Shown here: one piece after another, positions 2,394 to 31,177 of the stretch | Layout: each line of letters opens with the position of its first letter | How positions within the stretch are numbered: position 1 is the stretch's first letter | Source: Bacteroidota bacterium | GTDB taxonomy: Bacteria > Bacteroidota > Bacteroidia > Bacteroidales > VadinHA17 | DNA length: 49,967 bases | Reading direction: 5' to 3' | Assembly (NCBI GenBank): GCA_022561875.1 | Contig: JADFQJ010000018.1 | Coordinates: forward strand, 1 to 49,967 | The notes under the pieces: generated by a model | The model's input: only the letters and a program-made list of their open reading frames with translations | What the model was told of the DNA's origin: nothing | The model's database searches: none | Program-made: the position numbers and the translations under genes

Positions 2394-4778
2394 ATGTACG
2401 ACATAAACAAAGTACTTAAGCTAAGGATTAAAAGCAAAATGATTATTGCATTTATTGCTTTATCTACTATACCTTGGCTAATTGCAGGATTGGTTGGAAT
2501 TTCTTCAAATTTGAAATCTTTACAAAAAATATCAATTGAAAGCCTTAATTTTTCTTTGTCTATGACGCAAAACAAGTTAGATATGTTTTTTCATTCTATT
2601 GAAGAAAATGTTAACTTTTTTATATCATCCACTACTTTTAATAGATATGTAAATGCAATAAATAAGGAGGATAGCCCTGAAGTCAAAAACACGACATTAG
2701 ATATTATGCCGGAAATTATGAGTTTCACGCGTAACAAAGAATACTTTCATCAGATCAAATTAATAAACGGGTATGGAGATGAACTTTTTTGTTTGGAAAA
2801 ACGGGGGAATAGCTACCATTTCCTTAATAAAGATAAATTAAATCAAAGGGGTACACAATTTTATCTTCACGTTGCTAATAACATTCCCCCAAACACCGCT
2901 GCATTCTTGCCAACCGAGATATTAAAAGATGAAAATAATGAGTTGATATCTACTGTAAGCTGTATTTTTAATGTACGAAATTCTAATTTTTTCGGAGCTT
3001 TGGTATTTCAAATTTATGCGGATAGTTTTTTTAAAATACTAAAACAAGAAAGTTCCAAAATACAAGGAACGAAAGTAATGTTAGTTAATAAAGTTGGGTA
3101 TTATCTTTATCATTCAGAAAAAGAAACTGATTGGAATAAACTATCCGCCTCAAGGCAAACTTTGAATTTACAAGTTGACTTTGGAAATGAATTAGCTGAT
3201 AAAATATTATCTGACCCTTCTAATCTTAATTATGAATTAGGTGATTATATTATTGCTCAGACCAAGGTCTTTACATCTGATGTTGGTTTAGATAATCAAA
3301 ATACTTTATTAATAAGTGTTCTGAAAAAAGATATTTTTAAAGCAGTTAAAAAATACAAATTAGTTTTTGGGATTTTATTTTTGTTCTTTCTCTTATTATC
3401 ACTCGTACTGGCACTAATTGCTACAAATCAATTTATTGGACCAATCAGGAAATTAATAAATAAAGCCCGGATAATATCCACTGGAAATTATGATGTCAGG
3501 GTTAAGATTGATACTAATGATGAAATTGAAGAGCTTGCAAATCAGTTTAATATAATGGCCTCATCATTACAGCAACGTGAAATTGAAATTAACCAACATC
3601 AAGTTTTATTAGAACAAAAAGTGAAGGACAGAACCAGGGATTTGGAAAACGAAAAGAACAAGCTTAATACTATTTTTAATAATGTTCCAATTGGATTTCT
3701 TCTATTCGATATGGAAAACAAGATAATTTCAGCAAGTGTGGCAATAGAAAGAATTTTGGGGAATAAAATAGAAGAAATTACAGGTAAAAATTATTTTGAA
3801 ATAATAAAGTGGAAAAATGATGAGAAAAAAGAATTAATAAAAAAGATTAAACATACCGGAGAAACATTAACAGATTACACTTCCCTTATAAATAAGGATG
3901 GATCAAAACAATTCCTTGAACACCTGCTTATTCCAATAAAAAACAATAATCAAATTGAATCTATATTAGAAATAATTACTGACATTACTGAAAGGAAACG
4001 ATTGCAAGATTTATTAATCCATTCTGAAAGATTAGCTGCTACAGGTGAACTGGCAGCTGTTATAGCGCATGAAATCCGCAATTCATTAACATCTGTAAGA
4101 ATGATATTGCAGCTTTTTTCAAGGAGAGAAGAAAATGTAAAGCCTGATATTGATTCTTTTCATGTAGCTCTGGATTCAGTGAACAGAATGGAAAGAGTTG
4201 TAAATGATTTATTACAATTAGCCAGACCTTCAAAACTAGAAAGAAAATATGAAAATATAAACAATGTTCTTGAATCTGGAGTTGAATACTACCTGTCACA
4301 CATGGAAGAAAAGAATATTGAGATAGAATTGAATCTTGAAAACGATCTGCCAAAAATATTGATAGACAAGAACCGTATTATAGAAGTATTTATTAATATT
4401 ATCTTAAATGGAATTCAAGCTATTGATGGTACTGGAAAGATAACTATTTCCACAAAGCTCATTAAATTGGTTAAAGCTATAAGCGATATGGCTAAAATAG
4501 AAATTATAGAATCAGATTATCCACAGGTCAATATACAGGAAATATTGTTAAAAAAAGGAAGTAAAGTTATTGAATTAGAGATAAGTGATACAGGTCGAGG
4601 TATTAACTCCAACATTATTGACCAAATATTTGATCCGTTTTTTACAGATAAAATAAATGGTACCGGTTTAGGGTTATCGTTTGTAAAAAATGTAATAAAT
4701 AAACATGGTGGCATTATTCAGGTACAAAGCCAGGTTCAGAAGGGTAGTAAATTCACGATTTATCTGCCAATTAATTGA
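2394..4778 (+). CDS. Membrane sensor histidine kinase (extracytoplasmic sensor-HAMP-PAS-HisKA-HATPase)
   Basis: This 794-residue kinase has a first membrane helix at about 16-38, an extracytoplasmic sensing region of about 280 residues, a second helix at about 323-347, a HAMP linker (about 347-400), a PAS domain (about 430-535), a HisKA domain with phospho-acceptor His559 (AHEIRNSL) and a C-terminal ATPase domain with an N box, DTGRGI and GTGLGLSF. The sensing region resembles a Cache-type ligand domain, but I cannot name its ligand. The H-box type (HEIRN) is usual for kinases paired with NtrC-like regulators, and one is encoded directly downstream. The pair very probably controls the redox cluster beginning at 6401. 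Confidence 0.9.
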   Translation: MYDINKVLKLRIKSKMIIAFIALSTIPWLIAGLVGISSNLKSLQKISIESLNFSLSMTQNKLDMFFHSIEENVNFFISSTTFNRYVNAINKEDSPEVKNTTLDIMPEIMSFTRNKEYFHQIKLINGYGDELFCLEKRGNSYHFLNKDKLNQRGTQFYLHVANNIPPNTAAFLPTEILKDENNELISTVSCIFNVRNSNFFGALVFQIYADSFFKILKQESSKIQGTKVMLVNKVGYYLYHSEKETDWNKLSASRQTLNLQVDFGNELADKILSDPSNLNYELGDYIIAQTKVFTSDVGLDNQNTLLISVLKKDIFKAVKKYKLVFGILFLFFLLLSLVLALIATNQFIGPIRKLINKARIISTGNYDVRVKIDTNDEIEELANQFNIMASSLQQREIEINQHQVLLEQKVKDRTRDLENEKNKLNTIFNNVPIGFLLFDMENKIISASVAIERILGNKIEEITGKNYFEIIKWKNDEKKELIKKIKHTGETLTDYTSLINKDGSKQFLEHLLIPIKNNNQIESILEIITDITERKRLQDLLIHSERLAATGELAAVIAHEIRNSLTSVRMILQLFSRREENVKPDIDSFHVALDSVNRMERVVNDLLQLARPSKLERKYENINNVLESGVEYYLSHMEEKNIEIELNLENDLPKILIDKNRIIEVFINIILNGIQAIDGTGKITISTKLIKLVKAISDMAKIEIIESDYPQVNIQEILLKKGSKVIELEISDTGRGINSNIIDQIFDPFFTDKINGTGLGLSFVKNVINKHGGIIQVQSQVQKGSKFTIYLPIN

Positions 4779-4794: not shown

Positions 4795-6189
4795 ATGAGA
4801 AGAGAAAAATTACTGATTGCCGATGATGATAAAAATATCCAATTTGCTTTTAGAAAAGCTTTTGAGAGTAAAAACATTGATGTCGTTTCAGCAGATAATG
4901 GTAATGAAGTTTTAAGAATAATAGGTATTGAAAAGCCAAATGTGATATTTATGGATGTGGCTATGCCGGGAAAAAATGGTTTAGATGTATTGGAAGAGCT
5001 AAATGAAAGAAAAGTAGAGATACCAGTTATTATAATAACAGGGTTTGGTACGATGAACACTGCAATAAAAGCAGTACAACTTGGTGCATATGATTACATT
5101 GTAAAACCTCTGGATATTGATCAGATTTATTTTGTTGCTGAACGAGCACTTGAGATGGTAAGGTTAAGGAATAAAATTGATAATTTAAATATTGAGCTTT
5201 CAAGAAAAACTTCGAAAGATGAAATTATAGGTAACCATCCAAAAATTCAGAAGGTATATAAATTGATAGGCGCTGTAGTTAATACATCAAATACTACAAA
5301 TATTTTAATAACGGGTGAAAGTGGTACAGGAAAAGAATTGGTAGCAAAGGCAATTCATAAAAATAGCAAAAATTCAGAAAGGCCATTTATTGCTTTGAAT
5401 TGTTCTGTATTTCCGGACAGTCTTTTGGAAAGTGAATTATTTGGGTATGAAAAAGGCGCATTTACAGATGCAAAAGAAAAAAGAATTGGAAAATTTGAAT
5501 TAGCCGATGATGGCACGATCTTTTTAGATGAAATTGGTGATATGCCTTTAAATTTACAGAAAAAATTGTTACGTGTTTTTCAGGAAAGGGAGTTTTACAG
5601 ATTAGGTGGCAACAATCTGATTAAGCTTAAAGCGAGATTCATTGCTGCAACGAATAAGGATCTGGAAAAAAGTATTAAAAACAAGGAATTCAGGCAAGAT
5701 CTTTTTTACAGAGTTAATGTTTTTCCTATTGAAATTCCTCCGTTAAGAGAGAGAGGAGAAGATATTTCCTTACTATTACATCATTTCATTCAAAAATATA
5801 GTAAAAATCTTGGTAAAAAAATTGATTTAATACATCCTGAGGTAATTAAATTTATTAATGAATATAAATTCCCTGGTAATGTACGTGAGCTTGAAAATTT
5901 TGTTGAACATGCCTTTATCGTAAGTAAAGATAATGTACTTCGATTATCGGATTTCCCAATAAAAGAAAATAGAACAACTGATAGTAATTATTTTAATTTT
6001 TCTTCATTAATATTAGAAGAAGCAAGAGGGCAATTCAATAATATGTTTGAAAAAAAATTCATTAATGAATTAATGAATGCTTCAAAAGGTAAAGTAAAGG
6101 TAGCAGCTGATATAGCCAAAGTAGATAGAAGGACCATTCATCGTCTTATTAAAAAACACAATCTGATTACCAGGGAATTTAAAGTTTAG
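4795..6189 (+). CDS. NtrC-family sigma-54-dependent response regulator
   Basis: The 464 residues form the classic three-part activator: a receiver domain with phospho-acceptor Asp54 and acidic residues 10-12, a central AAA+ domain with Walker A GESGTGKE (174-181), the sigma-54 contact loop GAFTDA (221-226, a variant of GAFTGA), Walker B FLDEIGD and an arginine-finger region, and a C-terminal Fis-type helix-turn-helix (about 420-460). It needs RpoN RNA polymerase and binds upstream activating sites as a dimer or higher oligomer. The kinase gene ends 16 bases upstream, so the two are probably co-transcribed. The tandem inverted repeats just after the stop codon are its likely targets. Confidence 0.93.
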   Translation: MRREKLLIADDDKNIQFAFRKAFESKNIDVVSADNGNEVLRIIGIEKPNVIFMDVAMPGKNGLDVLEELNERKVEIPVIIITGFGTMNTAIKAVQLGAYDYIVKPLDIDQIYFVAERALEMVRLRNKIDNLNIELSRKTSKDEIIGNHPKIQKVYKLIGAVVNTSNTTNILITGESGTGKELVAKAIHKNSKNSERPFIALNCSVFPDSLLESELFGYEKGAFTDAKEKRIGKFELADDGTIFLDEIGDMPLNLQKKLLRVFQEREFYRLGGNNLIKLKARFIAATNKDLEKSIKNKEFRQDLFYRVNVFPIEIPPLRERGEDISLLLHHFIQKYSKNLGKKIDLIHPEVIKFINEYKFPGNVRELENFVEHAFIVSKDNVLRLSDFPIKENRTTDSNYFNFSSLILEEARGQFNNMFEKKFINELMNASKGKVKVAADIAKVDRRTIHRLIKKHNLITREFKV

Positions 6190-6195
6190 CTAATT

Positions 6196-6235
6196 CGACA
6201 TAAAATGTCGCTAGTATGCGACAAAGAATGTCGCA
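6196..6235 (+). promoter_or_regulatory. Tandem inverted repeats, probable upstream activating sites for the NtrC-type regulator
   Basis: Two dyads share the core CGACA-N5-TGTCG. The first is CGACATAAAATGTCG at 6196-6210. The second is TGCGACAAAGAATGTCGCA at 6217-6235. Their centres (6203 and 6226) are 23 bp apart, about two helical turns, so both would face the same side of the DNA. They start 6 bp after the activator stop codon and lie about 105 bp (second) to 128 bp (first) upstream of the -24 element at 6331, a usual distance for DNA-looping activators. The assignment to this particular regulator is inferred. Confidence 0.72.
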
Positions 6236-6330
6236 ATTAATGAATTTTATTTCTTTCTGTTTCAACTTGTAAAAAGTTTAACCTTTTATTTTCAATTCAT
6301 TATAAGTTATTTAATGTTATTGTTTTTTTG

Positions 6331-6345
6331 TGGCATACTAATTGA
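6331..6345 (+). promoter_or_regulatory. Candidate sigma-54 promoter (-24/-12)
   Basis: TGGCATACTAATTGA matches the sigma-54 consensus TGGCAC-N5-TTGC. It has the invariant GG, the exact 10-base gap to the second dinucleotide, and GA in place of GC at -12. Transcription would start near 6357, giving a leader of about 44 bases before the ATG at 6401. The position between activator-type repeats and a large redox operon, next to an NtrC-type gene, supports it. The weak point is the -12 GC-to-GA change. Confidence 0.65.
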
Positions 6346-6400
6346 TTATAGTTGTATTACAAAAAAATAATTATTAATTGTTAACTTAAATTATTCCAAA

Positions 6401-7378
6401 ATGAAAAAGAAAAGAAGTTTAAGACTTTTATTAAACATTTTCCTAATTATTAGTGTGGTTACTGTAATGAGTAGTTGCTCTGATGAGGAAACAACTGGAC
6501 CGGATTGCCCGGACCTTACAGGAGCTCCAACATTGAATTCCGCCTGGGTGTCTTTCGTTAATTGGGACGCAGCTACTAAAATAGAAATAATAGCTGAAGA
6601 AGTAGATGAAAGTAATATGCATTACACACCTTCGAACATCCAGTTAATTGCAGGAATGCCATACATATTGACTTTAAAGGTATTAGCAAGTAATCAGGAA
6701 AAACATTATTTCCATTCGCCTGACTTCTTCAAAGCTATTGCAACACGTAAAGTGCAAACCACAAGTGCCGAATACAAAGCTCCATATTTTGACGATATTG
6801 AGCTGGTACTCAATGGTGAAGCTGAACTGTTTTTTGTTCCGGTCATAGCAGGTACCTACGATCTCTGGTGTACGATTACCGGGCATCAGGCAGCAGGAAT
6901 GGAAATGACACTCGAAATCGCATGTGGGGATGGACTATCGTTGGATTTGGAAGTCGATCCGAATTTCAACACAGCTTTGGGATCCGATGCTCGCCGATCC
7001 GGTGGCCATGCAGTATGGGATACAAAGCAGGAAATTGAAGTTACCCTGGTCGAGAATAGTCAGGACGATTATGCTTTTAGCCCGGACACAATAATTCTTA
7101 GCGCTGATCAGGCTTACGTATTAAAGATTAAAAATCCGGCAACCAATTCGTCGAAACATTACTTTACTGCTCCTGAATTCTTTCAGTCAGTTGTAACCCG
7201 TAAAGCAGAAGACCCAAGGGCAGAAATAAAAGTTCCTTATTTCAAAGCTGTTGAGATACTTATTGGCAGCTACACCGAACTGTTTATCGTGCCAACGGTG
7301 CCTGGTACTTATGCTTTGGAGTGTACAATTACAGGACATGCAGCCGCTGGAATGGTAGGAACCATTATTGTGCAATAA
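6401..7378 (+). CDS. Lipoprotein with two tandem type-1 copper (cupredoxin) domains
   Basis: A lipoprotein signal ends at Cys26 (SSC). Two homologous domains of about 135 residues follow. Each carries a full type-1 copper ligand set: His102, Cys157, His162, Met167 in the first, and His253, Cys308, His313, Met318 in the second. The shared motifs are KHYF near the first His and C-T-I-T-G-H-x-A-A-G-M around the others. The protein should be a two-copper electron carrier tethered to a membrane on the periplasmic side or at the cell surface. It is the first gene after the sigma-54 promoter and precedes two cytochrome-porins, so it probably receives electrons from or passes them to those. The family has no name I recognise. 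Confidence 0.82.
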   Translation: MKKKRSLRLLLNIFLIISVVTVMSSCSDEETTGPDCPDLTGAPTLNSAWVSFVNWDAATKIEIIAEEVDESNMHYTPSNIQLIAGMPYILTLKVLASNQEKHYFHSPDFFKAIATRKVQTTSAEYKAPYFDDIELVLNGEAELFFVPVIAGTYDLWCTITGHQAAGMEMTLEIACGDGLSLDLEVDPNFNTALGSDARRSGGHAVWDTKQEIEVTLVENSQDDYAFSPDTIILSADQAYVLKIKNPATNSSKHYFTAPEFFQSVVTRKAEDPRAEIKVPYFKAVEILIGSYTELFIVPTVPGTYALECTITGHAAAGMVGTIIVQ

Positions 7379-7461
7379 TCAGAATACAGTACAGATCGAC
7401 CGTTATTTTATTTTCCCAATATCCGGACAAAAATGGAAAGAGACAACAAATTCAACTATAT

Positions 7462-8784
7462 ATGATAAGGGGGGTTTTTTTTACAGGATTGATCTTATTT
7501 ACTTTATTAATCAAAACAAATGCAATACCTGCATTTGCAAGAAAATATCAAACAAGCTGTGTGACTTGTCATTCAGTTTATCCTAAATTAAATTCATTTG
7601 GGGTTGCTTTTAAGCTGAATGGTTATCAATTTCCAGAAGGAGATGAAGAACAAATTAAAGAAAAACCACTTATATTAGGAGCTGAAGCTTACAAGAGGGT
7701 TTGGCCTGAGGCGATTTGGCCCGGCAGTATACCGGGCTCGTCGCCTATCGCATTTCGAATTAATGGAGGCTTTGCCTATGACAAAGCAAAATCTAATACT
7801 CCTGCTGAATTTTCAGTTCCTTCAGCACAGATATTTATGGGCGGCACATTCACTGAGGGAATTTCTTTTTTTGGCAGTTTATTGCTTGCCAAAGGCCACA
7901 ATACCAATGCTCTCCAAATGGCCTACATTAGATTAAATGATCTTTTCAGTAATATCCTTTCCGAAAATGCACTTAATTTACACATAGGTCAATTCATTCC
8001 AGATATTACAACGTATAAAAACAAACACTACAGCCTTACACGAGCGCTATATGCATTGAACACATATGTTCCTTCTAATGGAAGCTCCTTGAAACTTAGT
8101 CATCGAAATTTCGGAATAATGGGACAAGTCATTGGGGTGGAAGCGAATGGACTGATCAACAAACGCTTTCGTTATGCACTGGGTTTGACGAACGGAAACG
8201 CATTATTCGGAGAAGATAACAAGGCAAAAGACTTTTATGGAAAAGTTGCCTACAAACTTGGAGGAATGGCATTTGACGGATCCTATGCGGGTGATAACTC
8301 CGGTACTTCTGATAACAATTTAACTGAAAAGTCGATAATTGTCTCTTTCTTCGCTTACTCCGCATCCAGACTTAACGATAGTGAAAAGGACGTTTCACTC
8401 TTTAGATTCGGAAGCGATATAAATGTTTTTTATCGTAATTTGAATGTTATCGGTGGTTTTATTACCGGAATGGATGAAGATTATTACATTCCATCAGGAA
8501 CAACAGGAAATGTGAGATTTAACCGGAAATATAATCTCTTCTTCGGTGAAGCAAATTATATGATCTATCCCTGGCTGGTCGGTGTATTTCGTTACGAAAG
8601 AGTGAAACCTCAGGAAATTCATAGTGGACTCGTAGACCAGGAATCTTTTAATTCGGTATCCAGGTATATCTTTCATGCTACCGCTCTTTATACAGCGAAT
8701 TTTAAGTTTTTCGTGGAAACTATTGTGACTACAGATATTCCATATGAAATGAACATGTTTGCTGGCATGGATTTCGCATTTTAG
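7462..8784 (+). CDS. Outer-membrane monoheme cytochrome c-porin fusion, Cyc2-like (copy 1)
   Basis: I chose the ATG at 7462 because it starts a clean signal peptide; the longer frame from 7321 overlaps the previous gene. After the signal come IPAFARKY, one heme motif CVTCH (33-37) and PKLNSFGVAFKLNGY. About 380 residues of alternating polar and hydrophobic strands follow, ending in a final aromatic residue (FAGMDFAF), as in outer-membrane beta-barrels. A short heme domain before a porin is the build of Cyc2, the Fe(II)-oxidising outer-membrane cytochrome, and the AxPxFAR...CxxCH neighbourhood is similar. Related cytochrome-porins exist whose function is unknown, so iron oxidation is only a possibility. 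A paralogue follows 33 bases downstream. Confidence 0.75.
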   Translation: MIRGVFFTGLILFTLLIKTNAIPAFARKYQTSCVTCHSVYPKLNSFGVAFKLNGYQFPEGDEEQIKEKPLILGAEAYKRVWPEAIWPGSIPGSSPIAFRINGGFAYDKAKSNTPAEFSVPSAQIFMGGTFTEGISFFGSLLLAKGHNTNALQMAYIRLNDLFSNILSENALNLHIGQFIPDITTYKNKHYSLTRALYALNTYVPSNGSSLKLSHRNFGIMGQVIGVEANGLINKRFRYALGLTNGNALFGEDNKAKDFYGKVAYKLGGMAFDGSYAGDNSGTSDNNLTEKSIIVSFFAYSASRLNDSEKDVSLFRFGSDINVFYRNLNVIGGFITGMDEDYYIPSGTTGNVRFNRKYNLFFGEANYMIYPWLVGVFRYERVKPQEIHSGLVDQESFNSVSRYIFHATALYTANFKFFVETIVTTDIPYEMNMFAGMDFAF

Positions 8785-8817
8785 TTTTTTAATAACATCA
8801 ATAATTTAGGTGGTACT

Positions 8818-10080
8818 ATGAAAAAAAAGATAGCAACAGAAGTATTAGTATTTATATTTTTATTTTCGGGAATTAACGAATTATTTTCTATTCCGGCATT
8901 CTCTAGAAAATACAAAACAAGTTGTGTTACTTGTCATTCTTCATTCCCTAAATTAAATCCGTTTGGAGAAGCTTTTAGATACAATGGATACAAATTTCCG
9001 GTAAATGATGAAGATAATGTAAAGGAAGAACCTATAATTCTGGGTGCGGAGGCATATAAAATGGTTTGGCCTAAAGCTGTATGGCCTGGCAGTCTACCTG
9101 GCACAACGCCAATTGCTTTTCGGGGTAGAACTGGGTTTACCATAGGCAATGAAGGAGACAGCCTGTTATTTTCAGAATTCGGGAAACCGACCCTTCAATT
9201 AATGGCTTCCGGAGTTTTAAGTGAAGGAATTTCGTTTTTTATCGGGGCACATTTATATGAAGAGGGTAAAATGGGGAATATAGACCGGTTTTTCATTAGA
9301 TTTAATAATTTATTCAAGAATTTTTTACCTGAAAAATCATTAAATATTAGAGTTGGACAGTTTATTCCTGATATTGTTCCTTTTGCCTCTAATCACAGGG
9401 GAATTACAAATTCGGCTTATGCTTTTAACACCTATGCTCCTGAGTTGGGTACCGGTTTTGTTGCCGGGCATGTTCATGGAGGCGGCCCGTTTGGAATAGA
9501 AAATTTCCAGTTAGGAGCAGAAGCAAGTGGTATTGTAAAAAGCAGGTTCCGATATGTAGCAGGTTTGGTGAACGGAAACGGAACGGAGGATGATGACAAC
9601 TCATTCAGGGATTTATATGGCAGATTAAGTTTTAAATTAGGAGGAATGGCCTTTGATGGCACATTTAGAGACGGGGTAACTGATATTGAAACATCTATTA
9701 CTCTGGGGGTATTTGCTTACAAAGGAATAAAAACGATTAATTCTTATGATATTGACTTTCACCGCCTGGGATTTGATGCCAATATATACTTAAATAAACT
9801 AAACCTTGTTGGTGGATTTATTACCGGTTCTGACGGGAATCAGGATAAGGATAAATACAACCTGTTTTTTACTGAAGCAAATTACGCTTTTTATCCCTGG
9901 TTAACAGGACTACTCAGGTATGAACAAGCTAATCCAAAAGGCAAAGAATCAGCCAAGCAATTAGTGCCGCATATTAGTGCTTTGACTGTTGCAAATGTCA
10001 GGTTGAAATTGGAAACCCGTTTAGATATAAGTGATATTAAATTTAACAATCTTTATTTCGGATTGGACTTTGCATTTTAA
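8818..10080 (+). CDS. Outer-membrane monoheme cytochrome c-porin fusion, Cyc2-like (copy 2)
   Basis: This 420-residue paralogue of the preceding gene has a signal peptide, then IPAFSRKYKTS, one heme motif CVTCH (36-40), PKLNPFGEAFRYNGY and a beta-barrel region ending in YFGLDFAF. Shared blocks (GAEAYKMVWP, AVWPGSLPGTTPIAFR, NVRVGQFIPDI-like) show a tandem duplication followed by divergence. The two proteins could carry electrons across the outer membrane for different donors or acceptors, or at different potentials. The next gene encodes a small lipoprotein 27 bases downstream. The direction of electron flow cannot be told from sequence. Confidence 0.75.
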   Translation: MKKKIATEVLVFIFLFSGINELFSIPAFSRKYKTSCVTCHSSFPKLNPFGEAFRYNGYKFPVNDEDNVKEEPIILGAEAYKMVWPKAVWPGSLPGTTPIAFRGRTGFTIGNEGDSLLFSEFGKPTLQLMASGVLSEGISFFIGAHLYEEGKMGNIDRFFIRFNNLFKNFLPEKSLNIRVGQFIPDIVPFASNHRGITNSAYAFNTYAPELGTGFVAGHVHGGGPFGIENFQLGAEASGIVKSRFRYVAGLVNGNGTEDDDNSFRDLYGRLSFKLGGMAFDGTFRDGVTDIETSITLGVFAYKGIKTINSYDIDFHRLGFDANIYLNKLNLVGGFITGSDGNQDKDKYNLFFTEANYAFYPWLTGLLRYEQANPKGKESAKQLVPHISALTVANVRLKLETRLDISDIKFNNLYFGLDFAF

Positions 10081-10107
10081 ATTAATTATAAAAATTGGAG
10101 AAGAAAA

Positions 10108-10524
10108 ATGAAAACAAAAAATTTATTATTTGTAGGTTTACTAGCATATTTAGTGTTAGTTGTAAGCACATCCTGTGAGAAAAAAACAGATGCAATGGAC
10201 ACCTTAATAGACATAGAAATGAGTTATTCACCTAATCCGGCTGTTGTAGATTCTGTAATCACTATTACATTTGAAGTAGTTGAAGCTGGTGCTGCACATG
10301 ATGACAATGGAGATGATCATCATTTTGAATTATCCATGGTTAGTTGTGAAGTCCATGGTGGAACTCTTGAAGAGGAGATTACACTTACGCATCATGAAGC
10401 TGAAGGTCACTATGAAGGTGAATGGACATTCACAGAAGCGGGGACTTATGAACTTCACTTTGGATACATGTATGAAAGTGAAATGTTTGAAAAAGAATTT
10501 GAAGTAGTGGTTGTTGCCAATTAG
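10108..10524 (+). CDS. Small His/Glu-rich lipoprotein, unknown function
   Basis: The 138 residues begin with a lipoprotein signal ending at Cys23 (STSC). The rest looks like a single all-beta, immunoglobulin-like domain resembling YtkA-type domains (TITFEVVEAG near the start, GTYELHFGYMY near the end). A His/Asp-rich loop (AAHDDNGDDHHFE) and further histidines could bind metal. I do not recognise a named family. Its place between the cytochrome-porins and cupredoxin genes suggests a helper in copper delivery or assembly of the electron carriers, but this is inference from context. Confidence 0.62.
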   Translation: MKTKNLLFVGLLAYLVLVVSTSCEKKTDAMDTLIDIEMSYSPNPAVVDSVITITFEVVEAGAAHDDNGDDHHFELSMVSCEVHGGTLEEEITLTHHEAEGHYEGEWTFTEAGTYELHFGYMYESEMFEKEFEVVVVAN

Positions 10525-10527
10525 TTT

Positions 10528-10559
10528 AATATTCCCTGGATTAAAACAAAGGGAGTATT
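10528..10559 (+). terminator. Hairpin inside the redox operon (possible attenuator or processing site)
   Basis: AATATTCCC (10528-10536) pairs with GGGAGTATT (10551-10559) over nine positions including one G-U. No U-run follows, so it is a poor intrinsic terminator. It may partly terminate or protect the upstream part of the mRNA, separating the porin genes from the bc-complex genes. Confidence 0.35.
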
Positions 10560-10635
10560 GTCTAATAACACTATCCATAATGTGGAATAAGTATTATTTA
10601 TTTATAAACTAATAAATAACATAATTCTGATATAT

Positions 10636-11226
10636 ATGAAATATATGACAACCTTGCTGATTATTAATTTTATTATTATTTCAACTGGAATAGGGCAAAT
10701 CACCGGTAAAATTGAAACAGATGCCGGCAAAATAAAGTATAAAGCTAATACAGTTGTATATATCGAGCATATCAATGGAGAATTTTCTCCTCCGGAAAAG
10801 AACCCTGTAATAAACCAAATAGGATTAAAATTTGTACCTCATACACTTCCGGTACTAAAGGGCAGTACCGTTGATTTCTTAAATAGCGATAATGTGCTTC
10901 ACAATGTATTTTCACCAGATAAATGTGCGAATAAATTTAATCTCGGTAATTGGCCGAGAGGAGAAGTAAGATCTCATAAATATGACAACTTTGGATGTGA
11001 ATCAGTTTTGTTATGTAATGTCCATCCTGAGATGGAAGCATATGTAATCGTGTTACAGAATCCATATTTTGCAGTAACTGATAAAGAAGGGAACTTCAAT
11101 ATCGAAAATGTGCCTCCGGGTGATTATACACTGAAGGTGTGGAATGAAAAGCTAAAGGCAAAAGTAGAGCAAATTACTATTCCTGAATCCGGGACTATTC
11201 AGATAAATTTTAAATTAATAAAATAA
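10636..11226 (+). CDS. Periplasmic cupredoxin with carboxypeptidase-regulatory-like tail (copy 1)
   Basis: A 196-residue secreted protein with a short signal peptide (cut near Gly20-Gln21). The middle forms a cupredoxin-like domain with the likely type-1 copper ligands His89 (LHNVFS), Cys127, His130 and Met133 (LLCNVHPEM). The C-terminal 60 residues (TDKEGNFNIENVPPGDYTLKVWNEKL) are a carboxypeptidase-regulatory-like beta-sandwich. Proteins of this build occur near bc complexes and methylamine or denitrification clusters and are often annotated as methylamine-utilisation-like. It is a candidate soluble carrier between outer-membrane cytochromes and the Rieske/cytochrome b complex. A paralogue follows after 8 bases. 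Confidence 0.75.
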   Translation: MKYMTTLLIINFIIISTGIGQITGKIETDAGKIKYKANTVVYIEHINGEFSPPEKNPVINQIGLKFVPHTLPVLKGSTVDFLNSDNVLHNVFSPDKCANKFNLGNWPRGEVRSHKYDNFGCESVLLCNVHPEMEAYVIVLQNPYFAVTDKEGNFNIENVPPGDYTLKVWNEKLKAKVEQITIPESGTIQINFKLIK

Positions 11227-11234
11227 TTAATAAA

Positions 11235-11924
11235 ATGAAAAAAATACCAAATCTAAATTGCTTTTGTTTATCTACTAGTTTTTTCTTTACTGTGAAAAGG
11301 AGATTATGGTTGATAAACAATATAAAAGGATATTTTATCCTTGCACCTATGTGTTTACTTTTTACAAACTTCATATTTGCACAAGATATAACAACAAATG
11401 GATCTATCATCACGGGTAAAATTGAAGTAAGAGGAGTGAGAGACGCGAGAAATGTTGTTGTATTTTTAGAAAATGTAAAGGGGGATTTTAAGCCTCCGGC
11501 AGAAAAACCTATTATTGATCAGAGGAATCTTATTTTCATTCCTCATGTACTTCCTGTGCTTGTGGGAACTACAGTTGAATACCCAAATAGTGATAATGTT
11601 ATGCACAACGTTTTTTCTCCGTCAAAAACAAAAAAATTCAACCTGGGCACATATGGTAGTGGTATTGTACGGGAAATGACATTTGATAAGCCAGGTATTG
11701 TTACTATTCTTTGTAATGTTCATACTGAGATGTCCGCTTTTATTGTAATTCTTGAAAATCCTTATTTCACATTAACCGGTCCGAAGGGTGAATTTACAAT
11801 AAATAATATTCCTTCCGGGACCTACACAGTTAAAACATGGCATGAGAAACTGAAAGAACAAAAACAGGAAATCACGCTTAACCAGGATGAAAGCAAGACA
11901 ATCAACTTTACACTTACACGCTAA
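11235..11924 (+). CDS. Periplasmic cupredoxin with carboxypeptidase-regulatory-like tail (copy 2)
   Basis: A 229-residue paralogue of the preceding protein. Likely copper ligands are His124 (MHNVFS), Cys160, His163 and Met166 (LCNVHTEM), and the same C-terminal module is present (GPKGEFTINNIPSGTYTVKTW). The N-terminus is unusually long for a signal peptide; the hydrophobic stretch near 33-49 ending in Ala-Gln suggests that the true start may be a later codon (TTG near residue 26 or ATG at residue 39). It lacks the extra Cys residues of copy 1 (C97, C121). The duplication parallels that of the cytochrome-porins and of the domains in the first gene. Confidence 0.75.
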   Translation: MKKIPNLNCFCLSTSFFFTVKRRLWLINNIKGYFILAPMCLLFTNFIFAQDITTNGSIITGKIEVRGVRDARNVVVFLENVKGDFKPPAEKPIIDQRNLIFIPHVLPVLVGTTVEYPNSDNVMHNVFSPSKTKKFNLGTYGSGIVREMTFDKPGIVTILCNVHTEMSAFIVILENPYFTLTGPKGEFTINNIPSGTYTVKTWHEKLKEQKQEITLNQDESKTINFTLTR

Positions 11925-11949
11925 TTGAAAATATTAAAATGTTATAAAT

Positions 11950-12507
11950 ATGAAATCTTTGGAACAAAACGAAGATAATAATGAAAAGAACACTATAAAA
12001 TCACGGTTGGATGCGTTAGAATCCCGGCGAAAATTTTTTAAACGTTTAGGATGGGGAGGAATTAATGCTTTACTGCTTGGAGGGATGATAATGTCACTTC
12101 GTTTTTTTTACCCGAGAGTGTTGTTTGAGCCACCTAAAAGATTCAAGGTAGGTAAGCCTTCTGAATATCCAAGAGATATGGTGAATACTGAATACAAAGA
12201 GAAGTATGGAATATGGATTATCAGAGATAAAGACGGACTGTTTTTTTGCCTGAGTGTAAGATGCACACACCTCGGGTGTACACCTAATTGGCTTGATGCA
12301 CAGAAAAAATTTAAATGTCCCTGTCATGGAAGCGGATTTTATAAAGACGGAGAGAATTTTGAAGGGCCGGCTCCAAGACCATTAGACAGATTTAAAATTA
12401 CCCTGTCGGGAGATGGACAATTAATTGTTGATAAAAGTGTTGTGTTTAAAGGTATAGCCGGTATGAATTCCGGAGAAATTTATCCTCAAAGTTTATTAAA
12501 GACTTAG
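11950..12507 (+). CDS. Rieske [2Fe-2S] subunit of a bc-type complex
   Basis: The 185-residue protein has a charged N-terminus, a Tat-like signal-anchor (SRRKFFKRLG then a hydrophobic helix about 36-50), and the two Rieske motifs CTHLGC (C105, H107, C110) and CPCHGS (C123, C125, H126). C105/H107/C123/H126 bind the cluster, while C110 and C125 form the usual disulfide. A GPAPRPL loop follows as expected. It takes the first electron from quinol at the Qo site and hands it to a cytochrome. It heads a block of ferredoxin, cytochrome b halves and multiheme cytochrome spaced by 3-26 bases. Confidence 0.92.
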   Translation: MKSLEQNEDNNEKNTIKSRLDALESRRKFFKRLGWGGINALLLGGMIMSLRFFYPRVLFEPPKRFKVGKPSEYPRDMVNTEYKEKYGIWIIRDKDGLFFCLSVRCTHLGCTPNWLDAQKKFKCPCHGSGFYKDGENFEGPAPRPLDRFKITLSGDGQLIVDKSVVFKGIAGMNSGEIYPQSLLKT

Positions 12508-12510
12508 TAA

Positions 12511-12798
12511 ATGAATTCTGCAAATAATAATGTTAAAAAAAAAAGAGCGGTAGCATTTGTAGATTCTGCTTATTGTACCGGATGCGCAATATGTGCTGCC
12601 ATTTGTCCTGTTAAATGTATTGAGATCGTCGAATCGTCCTTCAATTTTACCGGGGAAGCAAAAGTAAGTCTGGAAATTTGTACAGGATGTAATCTGTGTG
12701 CGATTGATTGCCCATGGGAAGCCATATCAATGATAAATCCTGATGGTTCAATCAAGGAATATAGTAAACAACTATTCAGAGTACGAGGTTATGTTTAA
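12511..12798 (+). CDS. 2[4Fe-4S] ferredoxin embedded in the bc-complex operon
   Basis: A 95-residue cytoplasmic ferredoxin with two full CxxCxxCxxxCP motifs (C22/C25/C28/C32 and C57/C60/C63/C67), an additional Cys36 and no signal peptide. It starts 3 bases after the Rieske gene and ends 26 bases before cytochrome b, so it is almost certainly co-translated with the complex. A bacterial ferredoxin in this place is not part of standard bc1 or b6f complexes. It could link the cytochrome b heme on the cytoplasmic side to a low-potential pool, in the manner suggested for b6f with ferredoxin in cyclic electron flow. That role is inference. Confidence 0.9.
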   Translation: MNSANNNVKKKRAVAFVDSAYCTGCAICAAICPVKCIEIVESSFNFTGEAKVSLEICTGCNLCAIDCPWEAISMINPDGSIKEYSKQLFRVRGYV

Positions 12799-12824
12799 TA
12801 ATATTTAATAAAGGATAAAAACAG

Positions 12825-13607
12825 ATGAAAAACCCGTTCACCCAGTTCAGGAAATCAATAGTCTGGAAATCCATTTTCAGACGAGATAATAAAGACACCC
12901 AGAGAAATCGGGCAAGGGCTATATCCGGTAATGTTTTCCTTCATTTCCATCCGGTAAAAATTCGGGAGAGCGCTATAAAATACAAATTTACCTGGGGAAT
13001 GGGGGGAATTACTTTTCTTTTGTTTATTATTTTATTCGTTACAGGAGTTTTTCTAATGTTTTATTATACCCCATCAGCAGATCAGGCATATTGGGACGTA
13101 AAAGATTTGGAATATCAGGTACCTTTCGGAATGTTTCTCAGGAATCTTCATCGCTGGTCAGCTCATTTGATGGTAATTACTGTAATGATTCATATGTTTC
13201 GTGTTTTCATGACCGGATCATATAAACCTCCCCGGCAATTCAACTGGGTAATAGGAGTTGTTCTTTTACTTTTAACCTTGCTGCTGAGTTTTACAGGATA
13301 TTTGACTCCATGGGACCAGCTCGGTTTTTGGGCAATTACTGTAGGAACTAATATGGCAGCCGCAGCACCATTTATAGGTTTTGAAGGTCCGTTTAGTGAA
13401 CAGATCGGTATTACTGTTTACAATGATATACGTTTTGCATTGTTAGGTGGTTCAACTGTTGGACAAAGTGCGTTGCTAAGAGCATATGTCTGGCATTGTA
13501 TCGGACTTCCTCTGATAGCCCTGATTTTTATGTTCTATCATTTCTGGAGAGTCAGAAAAGATGGGGGTATATCCGGGCCTAATATTAACAATACCGGAAT
13601 AAATTAA
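12825..13607 (+). CDS. Cytochrome b, N-terminal half (b6-type)
   Basis: The 260 residues contain four membrane helices and the four b-heme histidines. The pairs are H109/H123 (14 apart) and H224/H239 (15 apart). The 15-residue spacing of the second pair is the mark of b6-type proteins rather than mitochondrial bc1. Typical motifs include [19 protein letters not shown] and [12 protein letters not shown]. The protein carries the two b hemes and part of the quinol sites. The C-terminal half is a separate gene 22 bases downstream, as in b6f and many green-clade complexes. The N-terminus has an extended charged segment of about 50 residues. Confidence 0.93.
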
Positions 13608-13629
13608 TATTAAGTCATGAAATTACCAG

Positions 13630-14514
13630 ATGGATAATTTACTAAAATTAATCTCAAAACCGGATAATGTAGCAATTGTCATAATGCTTATTTTGATTAC
13701 TGTTTATACAGTGTGGGCTTTTCGTCAGGCTATTGCAAATGATCGAAGAAAACGCCTGGGGAAACATGTAGAAGGATCAGATGACAAAAAATTGGATACA
13801 TGGCCAAATCTTGTACGGATCGAAATGTTGGTTGCAATGGTTGTTATTGCAGGTTTAATTGTTTGGTCAATTGTTTTAGATGCTCCTTTAGAAGAGCATT
13901 CAAATCCTAGTTTAACACCAAATCCCGCAAAAGCTCCCTGGTATTTCTTAGGATTGCAGGAAATGTTAGTCTATTTTGATCCCTGGATTGCCGGAGTTAT
14001 CTTTCCTATTCTGATCATTTTCGGTTTAATGGCAATTCCTTATCTCGATATTAATCCTAAGGGGAATGGATATTATACTTTTTCTGAAAGGAAAAATGCT
14101 ATCCTTATTTTTTGTTTCGGATTTCTGGTTCTTTGGATATTATTAATAGTAATTGGTGTTTTTATGAGAGGGCCTGGCTGGCTTTGGTATTGGCCATGGG
14201 AAGAATGGGACCATAATCGTGTTATCTATAAGGTCAATGTTGACCTGACTCAATACTTTGGAATAGATTCACGCTCTCTCTTTGGATTTTTAATAGGCGG
14301 TAGTGTTGTGATTCTTTATTTCGGATTAGGAATGATACTGCCTTATTATATTTGGAAAAAAAGGAATAGCGATTTCTTAAAGAAATTGGGAATGACGAGA
14401 TACATTATTCTTAGTTTTTTATTCTGTGCAATGATTGGACTGCCTATAAAGATTATTTTAACATTAACATTGAATATGAAATACATTTGGGTGACTCCAT
14501 GGTTTAATATATAA
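13630..14514 (+). CDS. Cytochrome b, C-terminal half (subunit IV-like, extended)
   Basis: A 294-residue membrane protein with helices near 12-30, 76-95, 120-140, 155-180, 218-240 and 252-275. The Qo-site motif reads APWYFLGLQEML (near 98-109) where bc1 complexes have PEWY, so the usual Glu is replaced by Pro. The protein is much longer than plant subunit IV (about 160 residues), with at least two additional C-terminal helices. It completes the quinol-oxidising core with the preceding gene. The octaheme cytochrome gene follows after 5 bases. Confidence 0.9.
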   Translation: MDNLLKLISKPDNVAIVIMLILITVYTVWAFRQAIANDRRKRLGKHVEGSDDKKLDTWPNLVRIEMLVAMVVIAGLIVWSIVLDAPLEEHSNPSLTPNPAKAPWYFLGLQEMLVYFDPWIAGVIFPILIIFGLMAIPYLDINPKGNGYYTFSERKNAILIFCFGFLVLWILLIVIGVFMRGPGWLWYWPWEEWDHNRVIYKVNVDLTQYFGIDSRSLFGFLIGGSVVILYFGLGMILPYYIWKKRNSDFLKKLGMTRYIILSFLFCAMIGLPIKIILTLTLNMKYIWVTPWFNI

Positions 14515-14519
14515 TCCTG

Positions 14520-17054
14520 ATGATAGAAAAAATAAAAAAAGAGCCACCATATGCACTATATTTTTTCCTATTAGCTGTAGTTATTATCGCTTTGTCAGCT
14601 TGGGCTTTATGGGTTGAAACGGTTAAATTACGCCCATGGAAGGCTTATCAAAAACAATATATTGAATTGAAAAGCCAAAAATTAAAAAGTGAATATGAAA
14701 AAGCCAGGTATGAATTTCAAAGCCAGGAAACACAGAAAAGATATGAAGAACTTAAAATGCAACTTAAAAAAGCCACAGAGAATTTTCAGCAGCCTGGAGT
14801 TCAAGAAAAATATAAAGTGGTTAAAAGAGAATTAGATTTAATTAATGAGAAAATAAAGATTAATAAAGCTGAATTTCAAAAAGCACGGGGAATATACCTT
14901 GAGTTGGAATACCTTTATCACAAACATCAGAAGGAAGAAGATAAAGTTAAGATGGCAGAGCTGGAAAAAGAAGTTGTAATATTAGAGGATGAAAGGAAGG
15001 AATTACAGAAAAAAAAGAGCGTGATATCAGAAGAATTGAATGAATTTACTGCAGAGGAAGAAAAATATACGGCAGAAATAAGAGAAATTGAAAAGAGAGT
15101 GGAAGAAGCGAAAGAAAAATTTGAAAAGTTAAGCGAAGTTCCGTTTGAAATAAAACAGATTTATATTAATGACATAAATAAAGCAGATCGCTGTGAATCC
15201 TGTCATATGGGTATTAATAGCTCGGATAATATTTCTGAACTGCATCCTTTTACTATACATCCTGGAAAATCAGTATACATTGAAAATCATCCACCGGAAG
15301 TTTTTGGATGCACAATGTGTCATAGAGGACAAGGAAGAGCTGTCTCTTCTGCAGATAAGGCACATGGATGGGTTGAATTCTGGACAGAACCAATGCTAAA
15401 AGGCAATATGGTTCAAGCTACCTGTCAAACCTGTCATGGCGATGTACAGCACTTACGGGGCGCAGACTTATTAAAGAAAGGTTCCAGTCTGATTGAAAAA
15501 TATGGTTGTTACGATTGTCATAAAATCGCCGGTTATGAAAATCTCAGAAAAACCGGACCGGAGTTAACAGAAATAGGATTAAAAGTCAATTATACCTATT
15601 TGGTTAATTGGTTGCTGGATCCAAAAGATTATATTGAAACAGCGCGGATGCCTAAATTTGACTTTTCAGAAGAAGAGGCAAGTGCAATTGCCGATTATCT
15701 TTTCAGTATGACAATTGAACATCGGATTGATTACTCGCCTGGTGAAATTAACTGGAATTTAGCTGACAAAGGCAAAGCTTTATGGGGACAGTCACGATGT
15801 AGTATTTGCCATCCAACAAATAGTATCGGTGGATCATTCAAAGAAATTTATGCTCCTGATTTAGGGATTGCAGGCAGTAAAATAAATCGAGACTGGTTAT
15901 ATAATTGGCTTAAAGATCCCAAGAGCTATCTCCCGCAAACAAAGATGCCTCGTTTTCGTTTTACAGATGATCAAATTTGGGCATTAGTGGAATTTATAAT
16001 GAGTGAATATATTGATTGGGATTTTAACCCACAATATAATAAACCGGTACAATTAAACATTAAATCTATTCAGAAGGGGAAAGAACTTATTCAAAAATAT
16101 GGTTGTTTTGGTTGCCACGAGGTGAAAGGTTTAGAAGAAATGAAACCGATAGGTCCTTTCCTGCGTCATGATGAAGTAAGCTATTTGAAGGTTGGTGAAA
16201 TAGAAAGTAAAGTAGGAGCTGAAATTTCATCGATTGGCAATCAGCCTATTGAACGTTTTGATTTTGGAGTATTGGAAAAGCTGATCCCAAATGATCGAAT
16301 GAGTTATCTCCAACAAAAAATGAAAGCCCCCCGGAGTTTTAGAGATGACCTCATAATGCCTGATTTTCAATTCAATGAAGAAGATATCGAGGCATTAACA
16401 GCCCTTCTTCTAGGATTCACCGATGCCAATGTACCAACACGATTTAAAGTACCAAAAGCGCAAAGCTCTTTTGAACTGACCGGTAAATTTGCTCAAATCG
16501 ATGATGATGTGAAATGTTTAAATTGTCATATGATTAACGGTAAAGGCGAGGAGTTTGCGCCTGATCTGTCCATCGAAGGCAGCAAAGTTCAGGAGCAATG
16601 GTTAAGAGAGTTCCTTAAACAGCCCGATATCATTCGTCCTATGCTCAAACAAATGCCACTTTTTAATCTGGATCACGATCAAACAATGATTCAAGGTAAT
16701 TTGTCATATTCTGAAATTGAAACAATTATTCAATATTTCAATCACGTATTGGTTTCAAATGAAATTCCTGAAAATATACCGGATAACGGATTGAGTTTTC
16801 AAGAACAGAAAGAAGCCGGAAAGACACTATATTTTGATAAAGGGTGTCAGGCTTGTCATCAAATAGGTATTGAAGGTGGTGCTGTAGGGCCCAACCTGAG
16901 TAATGTCGGCAACCGGTTAACCGAAGGTTATATTTTTAAACATCTTGAGAATCCACGAACATTCATTCCGGATATTGTTGAACCTAACTACGGGTTTAAT
17001 GAAGATGAAAGAATCAGTTTAACCAGATATTTAATGTCTTTGAAAAATGAATAG
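14520..17054 (+). CDS. Membrane-anchored octaheme cytochrome c with long coiled-coil stalk
   Basis: The 844-residue protein begins with one membrane helix (about 12-32). A highly charged coiled coil of some 170 residues follows (about 40-210, rich in Glu/Lys). Eight CxxCH motifs come next, at C225, C264, C302, C330, C427, C529, C666 and C776. The last five sit in class-I-like cytochrome modules, each followed by a likely axial Met (ARMPKF, TKMPRF, LIMPDF, QMPLF or similar). The protein should be the periplasmic electron outlet of the bc complex, held away from the membrane by the stalk. Multiheme subunits occur in other alternative bc complexes, but I do not recognise this fusion with a coiled coil. 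Confidence 0.85.
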   Translation: MIEKIKKEPPYALYFFLLAVVIIALSAWALWVETVKLRPWKAYQKQYIELKSQKLKSEYEKARYEFQSQETQKRYEELKMQLKKATENFQQPGVQEKYKVVKRELDLINEKIKINKAEFQKARGIYLELEYLYHKHQKEEDKVKMAELEKEVVILEDERKELQKKKSVISEELNEFTAEEEKYTAEIREIEKRVEEAKEKFEKLSEVPFEIKQIYINDINKADRCESCHMGINSSDNISELHPFTIHPGKSVYIENHPPEVFGCTMCHRGQGRAVSSADKAHGWVEFWTEPMLKGNMVQATCQTCHGDVQHLRGADLLKKGSSLIEKYGCYDCHKIAGYENLRKTGPELTEIGLKVNYTYLVNWLLDPKDYIETARMPKFDFSEEEASAIADYLFSMTIEHRIDYSPGEINWNLADKGKALWGQSRCSICHPTNSIGGSFKEIYAPDLGIAGSKINRDWLYNWLKDPKSYLPQTKMPRFRFTDDQIWALVEFIMSEYIDWDFNPQYNKPVQLNIKSIQKGKELIQKYGCFGCHEVKGLEEMKPIGPFLRHDEVSYLKVGEIESKVGAEISSIGNQPIERFDFGVLEKLIPNDRMSYLQQKMKAPRSFRDDLIMPDFQFNEEDIEALTALLLGFTDANVPTRFKVPKAQSSFELTGKFAQIDDDVKCLNCHMINGKGEEFAPDLSIEGSKVQEQWLREFLKQPDIIRPMLKQMPLFNLDHDQTMIQGNLSYSEIETIIQYFNHVLVSNEIPENIPDNGLSFQEQKEAGKTLYFDKGCQACHQIGIEGGAVGPNLSNVGNRLTEGYIFKHLENPRTFIPDIVEPNYGFNEDERISLTRYLMSLKNE

Positions 17055-17499
17055 AAGAATGCGAATTTTAAGTTTTATCATAATTCTTTTATTATCTCTG
17101 AATTTTGCTGGTTGTCAGGAAAGATCAGAGAGTCACGAAAATAATCATGTCCGAAAAGAAAATTTTTCTGTCAGAGAGGGCAAAAGACTTTTTATTCACT
17201 ATTGCTCACCCTGTCATGGGGAAAGTGGAGATGGTTTCGGACAATATTTAGCTTATGGACTGGAACCAAAACCACCGGATTTTACATCTCCGGATTTTTT
17301 AATAAAAAGATCAGACACATTACTTTTGTTAACCATTAGTGAAGGATCGATCAGTATCGGCAAATCAAACCTTTGCCCACCATGGGGAAAAACCTTTCGA
17401 AAAGAAGAAATTAATTTTGTTGCCGATCATGTTAAATATCTTAATGAAAAAGCTAATGTTAACAGCAATAATATCGAGCTTGCTGGTGAAAAAAATTAA
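17047..17499 (+). CDS. Monoheme cytochrome c lipoprotein
   Basis: A 150-residue lipoprotein (signal ending AGC, Cys23) with one class-I cytochrome motif CSPCHGESGDGFG and the usual downstream pattern (KPPDFTS, then LCPPWGKTF with a possible Met-less distal ligand, then EEINFVADHVKYL). The gene overlaps the octaheme gene by 8 bases, which suggests translational coupling. It may shuttle electrons between the octaheme subunit and a terminal oxidase, a reductase or the cupredoxins. It is the last gene of the + strand redox run; the next genes are convergent. Confidence 0.85.
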   Translation: MNRRMRILSFIIILLLSLNFAGCQERSESHENNHVRKENFSVREGKRLFIHYCSPCHGESGDGFGQYLAYGLEPKPPDFTSPDFLIKRSDTLLLLTISEGSISIGKSNLCPPWGKTFRKEEINFVADHVKYLNEKANVNSNNIELAGEKN

Positions 17500-30604: not shown

Positions 30605-31177
30605 TTAGACTTTATCTAAAGGATTTCGTTTTTTTTTCTTCGATTTTTTGAATTGAGAAGGTGAAAAACCTGTATTTTTTTTAAACTGGTTAGACAGATG
30701 CTGAACGGAGCTATACCCAACTTGATATGATATTTCGGTTAAAGAAAGCTCATCATAAGTTAAAAGTTCTTTTACTCTCTCTATTTTCTGATTGATTATA
30801 TATTTTTCAATAGTCGTATCTCCAATTGAAGAAAACAGTTTGCTCAAATAAGAATAATCGTAACCCAATTCTCTTGCAATGAAATCCGATATATTCACAT
30901 TGTCAGGAATTTCTTTTTTGTAATGGATAATTTCAATAATTGTATTCTTGATTTTTTCAATTATTTTACTTTTTTTATCATCAATAAGTTCAAATCCATT
31001 GTCGTTTAATGCTTTATCAATCTTTTTAATTATCTCATCCTCAATTTGTCCTTCTATTTCCACTTTACCCAATTCAATGTGCTCCACCATAAGCCCGATT
31101 TTTCTAATTTCTTCTTCCACAGTTTTAATACATCTTGGACAAACCATGTTTTTTATGTATAAAGTAGTTCTGCTCAT
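30605..31177 (-). CDS. AraC-family regulator with N-terminal HMA metal-binding domain
   Basis: The 190 residues join an HMA-like domain (1-70, metal site C13-P-R-C16 in NMVCPRCIK) to an AraC-type double helix-turn-helix domain (about 90-185, with LTEISYQVGYSSVQHLSNQFKKNTGFSPSQFKK). This fusion lets the transcription factor sense a soft metal directly, most likely Cu(I). It lies upstream of the HYC/CC/PP and cus genes in the same direction and is the obvious candidate regulator of the pump. A TAACTTTG box precedes its ATG by 4 bases. Confidence 0.88.
   Translation of the reverse strand: MSRTTLYIKNMVCPRCIKTVEEEIRKIGLMVEHIELGKVEIEGQIEDEIIKKIDKALNDNGFELIDDKKSKIIEKIKNTIIEIIHYKKEIPDNVNISDFIARELGYDYSYLSKLFSSIGDTTIEKYIINQKIERVKELLTYDELSLTEISYQVGYSSVQHLSNQFKKNTGFSPSQFKKSKKKKRNPLDKV

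Follow-up and report, generated by a model that had tools for sequence, protein, structure and literature searches.

The window, by which we mean the whole stretch of 49,967 nucleotides that was analysed, is one contig of a Bacteroidota genome that comprises 104 contigs and 2.77 Mb and is 98% complete. Genes for a sensor kinase and a response regulator are followed in it by a short control region and by twelve genes that mostly read as redox and outer-membrane proteins:

2394-4778, plus strand: sensor histidine kinase with dCache-like sensor, HAMP, PAS, HisKA and HATPase domains (Pfam)
4795-6189, plus strand: NtrC-type response regulator with a receiver, a sigma-54 activation domain and a C-terminal helix-turn-helix-like stretch, VDRRTIHRLIKKH (Pfam, alignment)
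6196-6210, plus strand: putative operator dyad 1, an exact CGACA-N5-TGTCG, CGACATAAAATGTCG
6219-6233, plus strand: putative operator dyad 2, an exact CGACA-N5-TGTCG 23 bp 3' of dyad 1, CGACAAAGAATGTCG
6234-6330, plus strand: A+T-rich linker from the operators to the promoter (17% G+C over 6235-6330)
6331-6345, plus strand: predicted -24/-12 (sigma-54) promoter element, TGGCATACTAATTGA
6401-7378, plus strand: first operon gene, SoxE, Cupredoxin_1 and Copper-bind matches, read from sequence as a lipoprotein-like protein with two cupredoxin-like repeats
7462-8784, plus strand: outer-membrane porin-like protein with one N-terminal CxxCH haem site, a paralogue of the next gene
8818-10080, plus strand: second haem-porin-like protein with one CxxCH, 46% identical to the first porin-like protein
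10108-10524, plus strand: YtkA-like protein (Pfam)
10636-11226, plus strand: carboxypeptidase-regulatory-like domain protein, copy 1 (Pfam), plastocyanin-like by eye
11235-11924, plus strand: carboxypeptidase-regulatory-like domain protein, copy 2, with weak halocyanin/plastocyanin matches under cut-off
11950-12507, plus strand: Rieske iron-sulfur protein (Pfam)
12511-12798, plus strand: ferredoxin, 4Fe-4S dicluster (family match)
12825-13607, plus strand: cytochrome b, b6/ExtP-like (family matches)
13630-14514, plus strand: cytochrome b C-terminal subunit, subunit IV/ExtQ-like (family matches)
14520-17054, plus strand: multihaem cytochrome c with 8 CxxCH, partly ExtS-like (family matches, motif count)
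17047-17499, plus strand: monohaem cytochrome c, last operon gene (family matches, motif count)

The twelve genes from 6401 to 17499 are co-directional, and nine of the eleven gaps between them are of 33 bases or fewer, the other two measuring 83 and 111. The start of the first porin-like gene was shifted from 7321 to the ATG at 7462. Its paralogue has no Pfam or NCBIfam match; the moderate model of this second protein (mean pLDDT 66.4, with much of the haem region below 50) matches general porins of the OmpF/OmpC type, suggesting that the pair may be porins. At E <= 1e-10, the first operon gene was matched in one of 393 genomes of the order, the window's own. Directly upstream of the kinase, positions 32-2304 encode a FlpD/ferredoxin-domain protein together with qmoC, whose score of 381.8 bits exceeds the cut-off of 300; these neighbours hint at sulfur metabolism. 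Much further downstream, an open reading frame at 30605-31177, near copper-efflux-like genes, combines an N-terminal heavy-metal-binding-like domain with an AraC-type helix-turn-helix when read by eye.

The dCache_1 match of the kinase (31.5 bits) is under the cut-off of 45. However, an AlphaFold model of residues 1-393 (mean pLDDT 72.9) matches dCache-type sensor domains in the PDB, such as 2p7j and 3lid, and the sensor region thus models as a dCache domain. The original prediction had placed the dyads directly after the gene of a sigma-54 activator, and the upstream gene does encode both a receiver (PF00072, E = 2.9e-28) and a sigma-54 interaction AAA+ domain (PF00158, E = 6.1e-69), the latter with Walker motifs that can be read from the translation. 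D54, invariant in an alignment of three such regulators, is probably the phosphoacceptor Asp, and the best solved relatives are 1ny5 and 4l4u. The Pfam matches at E <= 0.001 include no helix-turn-helix family; the helix-turn-helix-like stretch is conserved in relatives. The protein is not NtrC/NR(I) proper, at least by the TIGR01818 equivalog cut-off (430.9 bits against 558.6), and it stays under the cut-off of all of the best 25 of 119 NCBIfam models matched. Among the matches listed from 99 genomes of the genus, family and order, the best full-length identity is about 41%, and partial matches to the AAA+ domain reach at most 49%. A search of viral contigs with the regulator returned three distant loci with best segments of 36-42%. 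The loop that contacts sigma-54 reads GAFTDA rather than GAFTGA in the window's regulator, which counts against its acting on sigma-54. The same GAFTDA is found in the related locus L076, and GAFTGA in L094. Of 48 distinct loop stretches, a count that includes the window's regulator and its relatives, four were GAFTDA and one GAYTDA.

Between the regulator gene and TGGCATACTAATTGA, the two dyads lie 23 bp apart centre to centre, with their centres about 128 and 105 bp before 6331. Two dyads of one core, 23 bp apart and about 105-128 bp before a promoter element, were what the original prediction described, and all proved exact at their positions. It had also noticed no other copy in the window, which holds at up to one mismatch: a search of the whole window found no dyad beyond the two. 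Since at least two matches at up to one mismatch also occurred in 8 of 100 whole-window shuffles, the improbable part is the exact tandem arrangement. The tandem dyad score was reached by none of 2000 dinucleotide shuffles of the intergenic region, a figure that is partly circular as the motif was derived from the window itself. A scan of the whole genome, which had been proposed along with the prediction, returned one further exact dyad, within an 852-residue coding frame that by eye reads as infB, and not the many unrelated copies that would have told against the prediction. The tandem pattern YGACA-N5-TGTCR-N8-YGACA-N5-TGTCR was found, at up to one mismatch, in one of 395 genomes drawn from the phylum, the window's own, and no second tandem site was found in that genome, so that calling the module self-contained is fair at the sequence level. 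Single dyads (YGACA-N5-TGTCR) and a reversed control pattern numbered, respectively, 7 and 6 in genome G000, 2 and 7 in G594, 36 and 13 in G646, 9 and 14 in G836, 2 and 1 in G839, and 7 and 16 in G840. Six of the 36 copies in G646 read TGACAAAGGATGTCA, possibly a repeat family.

The correctly spaced TGGCAT-N5-TTGA element that had been predicted was found at 6331-6345, the only exact match to TGGCAY-N5-TTGM on either strand of the window, and transcription would start near 6357. At up to one mismatch the window holds 14 matches against a shuffle mean of 14.6, and the promoter element alone is therefore weak evidence. Among 3000 dinucleotide shuffles of the intergenic region, the exact pattern arose in one and a pattern with up to one mismatch in 23. 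The -12 consensus of sigma-54 promoters is TTGC; the TTGA of the window counts against activation through sigma-54. The genome encodes rpoN (PF04552, E = 2e-50), whose presence had been named as a check of the prediction.

With the porin pair as query, 28 loci and seven further regions were collected, and in several of the loci tblastn showed the porin to be preceded by genes for a kinase and a regulator. Three relatives carry the CGACA-type operator in whole or in part. The first, L080, is a contig of a Bacteroidetes MAG that begins, as read, within the last codons of a regulator gene; a second contig of the MAG ends in the front part of such a gene, which has 87% identity over residues 1-409 and follows a kinase gene with 70% identity. 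Its dyads are again 23 bp apart, dyad 1 being exact and dyad 2 having one changed base. Identity between L080 and the window is 31/40 over the dyads, 76/96 over the linker, 14/15 over the promoter element, where the GG and G at the fixed -24/-12 spacing of TGGCATACTAATTGA are kept, and 30/55 over the leader. As the linker is conserved as much as the dyads, this close pair alone would not single out the dyads. They are singled out by L094, from an Ignavibacteria MAG with a regulator 59% and a kinase 50% identical to those of the window, where the tandem sites and their distance are kept although the linker is only 60% alike in a global alignment. The dyads of L094 are 23 bp apart, dyad 1 with one changed half-site base and dyad 2 exact, and its element has TGGCAT at -24 and a poor -12 part (TTTAT). 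In L076, whose regulator is 65% identical, dyad 1 is partly kept and the second site is degenerate (14/20 tandem positions), followed by the element TGGAAC-N5-TTGA.

The spacing varies little among these loci. The centre of site 2 is 104.5-106.5 bp from the element in the window, L080 and L094 and 96.5 bp in L076, the linkers being 97, 96, 98 and 88 bp long in the same order; the element starts 112, 111 and 113 bp after the start of dyad 2 in the window, L080 and L094. With the motif taken from the window, the observed tandem score was matched by none of 2000 shuffles in L080, none of 2000 in L094 and 22 of 2000 in L076. Dyad 1 overlaps or touches the regulator stop codon in L076 and in L106, which is L094 retrieved again; a free scan for tandem palindromes missed the dyads of these two loci because it began after the stop codon, while the fixed-motif test included those bases. 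A scan of the four linkers for IHF sites gave only matches with one or two mismatches at scattered positions, and no IHF role is claimed accordingly.

These comparisons bear on whether the dyads might serve another regulator, or the NtrC-type protein might repress, with the operon read from a housekeeping promoter. Sigma-70-like matches do occur nearby, for example at 6342-6371, but at shuffle level (79 found against a mean of 72.2), and the Bacteroidota-type -33/-7 matches that overlap the element are weak, with two mismatches. Yet the genome contains this tandem operator once only, related loci have it again beside orthologous regulators, and L080 retains the -24/-12 element but not the leader, so this explanation is very unlikely. 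L080 offers a further observation. At the other end of this 7304 bp contig lies a second, slightly different copy of the dyads and promoter, inverted, which precedes an open reading frame that reads as ankyrin repeats and another protein, this one having a secretion tail and a DOMON match under cut-off; a duplication may have placed new genes under this control region. A second copy before ankyrin-like and DOMON-like genes would fit a regulator whose main targets lie elsewhere, the downstream operon being incidental. We consider this slightly less probable still, as the window's genome has no other tandem site and as the sites in the window, L080 and L094 face the operon with a promoter at a near-constant distance. 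Activation of the adjacent operon by the adjacent regulator is the reading that these loci favour.

A wider set of 20 regulators from 18 genomes (E <= 1e-140) came from searching 245 genomes of the class of L094 with the three-regulator alignment; three were already known loci (L106 is L094, L124 is L072 and L136 is L073). In six of the 20 a sensor-like gene comes next, either immediately or after no more than about 115 bp, and a further one breaks off at a contig end. The remaining 13 include nine with the recognition helix M(T/S)RQNFQR and four with others: L106 (VDKRTI type), L124 and L125 (VRRQSL), and L126 (VTRQNL). Eight of the nine M(T/S)RQNFQR loci have a tandem site that is significant, with 0-1 of 100 shuffles doing as well, and that is made of TGCCAA-N7-TTGGCA-like sites in seven and of a more diverged TGTCA/CGCCAA pair in L131 (1 of 100). 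In these eight loci 20 or 22 bp separate the two sites, and the element lies 90.5-93.5 bp from the centre of site 2 in 8/8; it has at most two mismatches to TGGCAC-N5-TTGC in seven, that of L131 having been picked by eye. L130, the ninth, has a gap after the regulator and no tandem site (97 of 100 shuffles as good). The six regulators without a control region also have the M(T/S)RQNFQR helix and no significant tandem site, and their targets may be elsewhere. With 15 of the 20 regulators carrying this helix and seven of these lacking a tandem site, the helix is no guarantee of an adjacent operator.

The free scan found nothing significant in L083, L124, L125, L130, L084, L090, L085 and L097, nor in the six loci that lack a control region, since 46-100 of 100 shuffles did equally well; for L076 the figure was 10 of 100. 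An A+T-rich pair in L126 (1 of 100) was not counted as an operator, and a pair in L124 that had been picked by eye is not relied on, as 61 of 100 shuffles proved as good. The other regulator types share a further trait: in L073, the first gene after the sigma-54 promoter (7780-8094) reads by tblastn as a stand-alone receiver protein, and the same reading was made by eye in L124, L127, L128, L130, L131, L132, L136, L139 and L140; such a receiver is perhaps a phosphate sink or a feedback element.

The operator sequence thus varies between regulators with different recognition helices. This matters for the possibility that the dyads are mainly an RNA feature, serving to end the regulator mRNA, to stabilise its 3' end or as an attenuator. 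Both dyads (6190-6240) can be folded as one RNA hairpin of -19 kcal/mol (-26 in L080), and a terminator-like site is listed on the minus strand at 6223-6206. Any tandem palindromes would give such a fold, however, and on the plus strand no T run follows the dyads and none of the 12 terminator-like sites listed lies there. What recurs is the half-sites, their spacing of 20-23 bp and the distance to the promoter, and that the half-site sequence should vary with the type of recognition helix is not predicted by an RNA hairpin. A role mainly in RNA is therefore very unlikely, and we favour DNA sites that the regulator would bind.

Promoter and regulator also tend to occur together. In the 700 bp before the target genes, the strict element TGGCAY-N5-TTGN is present in 7 of the 12 loci with an upstream NtrC-type regulator, counting the window, L080 (regulator inferred from another contig) and L086 (regulator 2.5 kb away), and in none of the 23 loci where tblastn showed no regulator (Fisher p = 1.2e-4). 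Allowing up to two mismatches to TGGCAC-N5-TTGC narrows the contrast to 10 of 12 loci against 5 of 23 (p = 9e-4), and one of the ten elements, that of L085, falls inside the regulator gene. The loci compared are not independent, as several are Geothrix-like; L078 was omitted since it is the same contig as L069. Seven of the 23 loci have less than 3 kb of upstream sequence, so that a regulator may have been missed past the contig end. The absence of the strict element from five of the 12 regulator-linked loci counts against the activation account.

Regulators of the NtrC type combine a receiver, an AAA+ domain and a helix-turn-helix and act from upstream sites on -24/-12 promoters, and ordinary activation of this kind at a sigma-54 promoter is the simplest account of the locus. 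Under this scenario, the kinase (2394) would sense a signal through its dCache-like domain and phosphorylate the regulator (4795), which would bind both CGACA-N5-TGTCG sites just past its own gene and assemble as a ring. The ring would then contact the sigma-54 RNA polymerase poised about 105 bp further on at TGGCATACTAATTGA, and ATP hydrolysis would open the promoter for transcription, from near 6357, of the twelve-gene electron-transfer operon (6401-17499). The near-constant distance between operator and promoter for each type of regulator may reflect looping that depends on helical phase. We put the probability that the kinase/regulator pair activates the twelve-gene operon through the tandem dyads and the sigma-54 promoter at roughly 85%. 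The gene order, domains, operators, promoter element, rpoN and recurrence in relatives behind this estimate are all read directly from sequence; what we infer from them is that the regulator is phosphorylated, binds the sites and activates instead of repressing, and how far the transcript extends. The order of kinase, regulator, tandem operator, promoter and operon recurs in distant genomes with near-constant spacing, and this, together with operators that differ between regulators with unlike recognition helices, lends support to the original prediction that the pair switches on the operon from 6401.

Several known systems resemble parts of this module. In Geobacter, the sigma-54 activator BccR controls CbcBA, an inner-membrane electron-transfer module, which may be a similar arrangement. 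Cyc2-type fused haem-porins have a single N-terminal haem motif followed by a beta-barrel, an architecture that the porin-like proteins of the window may share. The module follows the same scheme as the NtrC-family/sigma-54 systems of Geobacter sulfurreducens, with a different operator and target. According to a study of these systems, the genes of such activators often, but not always, adjoin their target promoters, and the Geobacter RpoN regulon includes cytochromes (PMC2725144); to that extent the regulatory principle is not new. The target is like the G. sulfurreducens extHIJKLMNOPQS genes, which encode a Rieske protein (ExtO), a cytochrome b (ExtP), a membrane subunit (ExtQ), a cytochrome c (ExtS) and an outer-membrane porin (PMC5877670, PMC6148476). 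The matches in the window to the NCBIfam models of these proteins are under cut-off (ExtP 272.4 of 290 bits, ExtQ 53 of 150, ExtS 80.6 of 100), and its porins carry a haem motif, unlike the ext cluster. Control appears to differ as well: extHIJKL-like clusters, according to a figure legend, have a LysR-type regulator upstream, with marked exceptions (PMC6148476), whereas that of the window is NtrC-type. The literature searched contained no paper in which we recognised the module, which does not prove that none exists.

The switch looks real and its type is well known; a target of haem-porins, cupredoxins and a Rieske-cytochrome b pair is less familiar. The window may be one instance of a cassette spread over several phyla, in which a dCache-type kinase and an NtrC-type regulator serve only one route to the outer membrane, made of haem-porins, blue-copper proteins and a Rieske-cytochrome b pair. 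Operator and recognition helix would then have changed in concert, with hardly any change of geometry inside each type (sites 20-23 bp apart, promoter at about 92 or about 105 bp). We hold this tentatively, at somewhat less than even odds. The relatives form a natural variant set in which operator and recognition helix differ jointly at near-constant geometry, and the window provides a testable operator and promoter for an electron-transfer operon in bacteria that metagenome-assembled genomes have brought to light. Of greater interest is the biology of the target pathway, and the sensor domain of the kinase would offer a way to learn what the haem-porin pathway is for. If the cassette reading is true, these bacteria would respire by a pathway that has not been described, that responds to an environmental trigger and that comes with its own sensor, the ligand of which would report the electron acceptor or donor.
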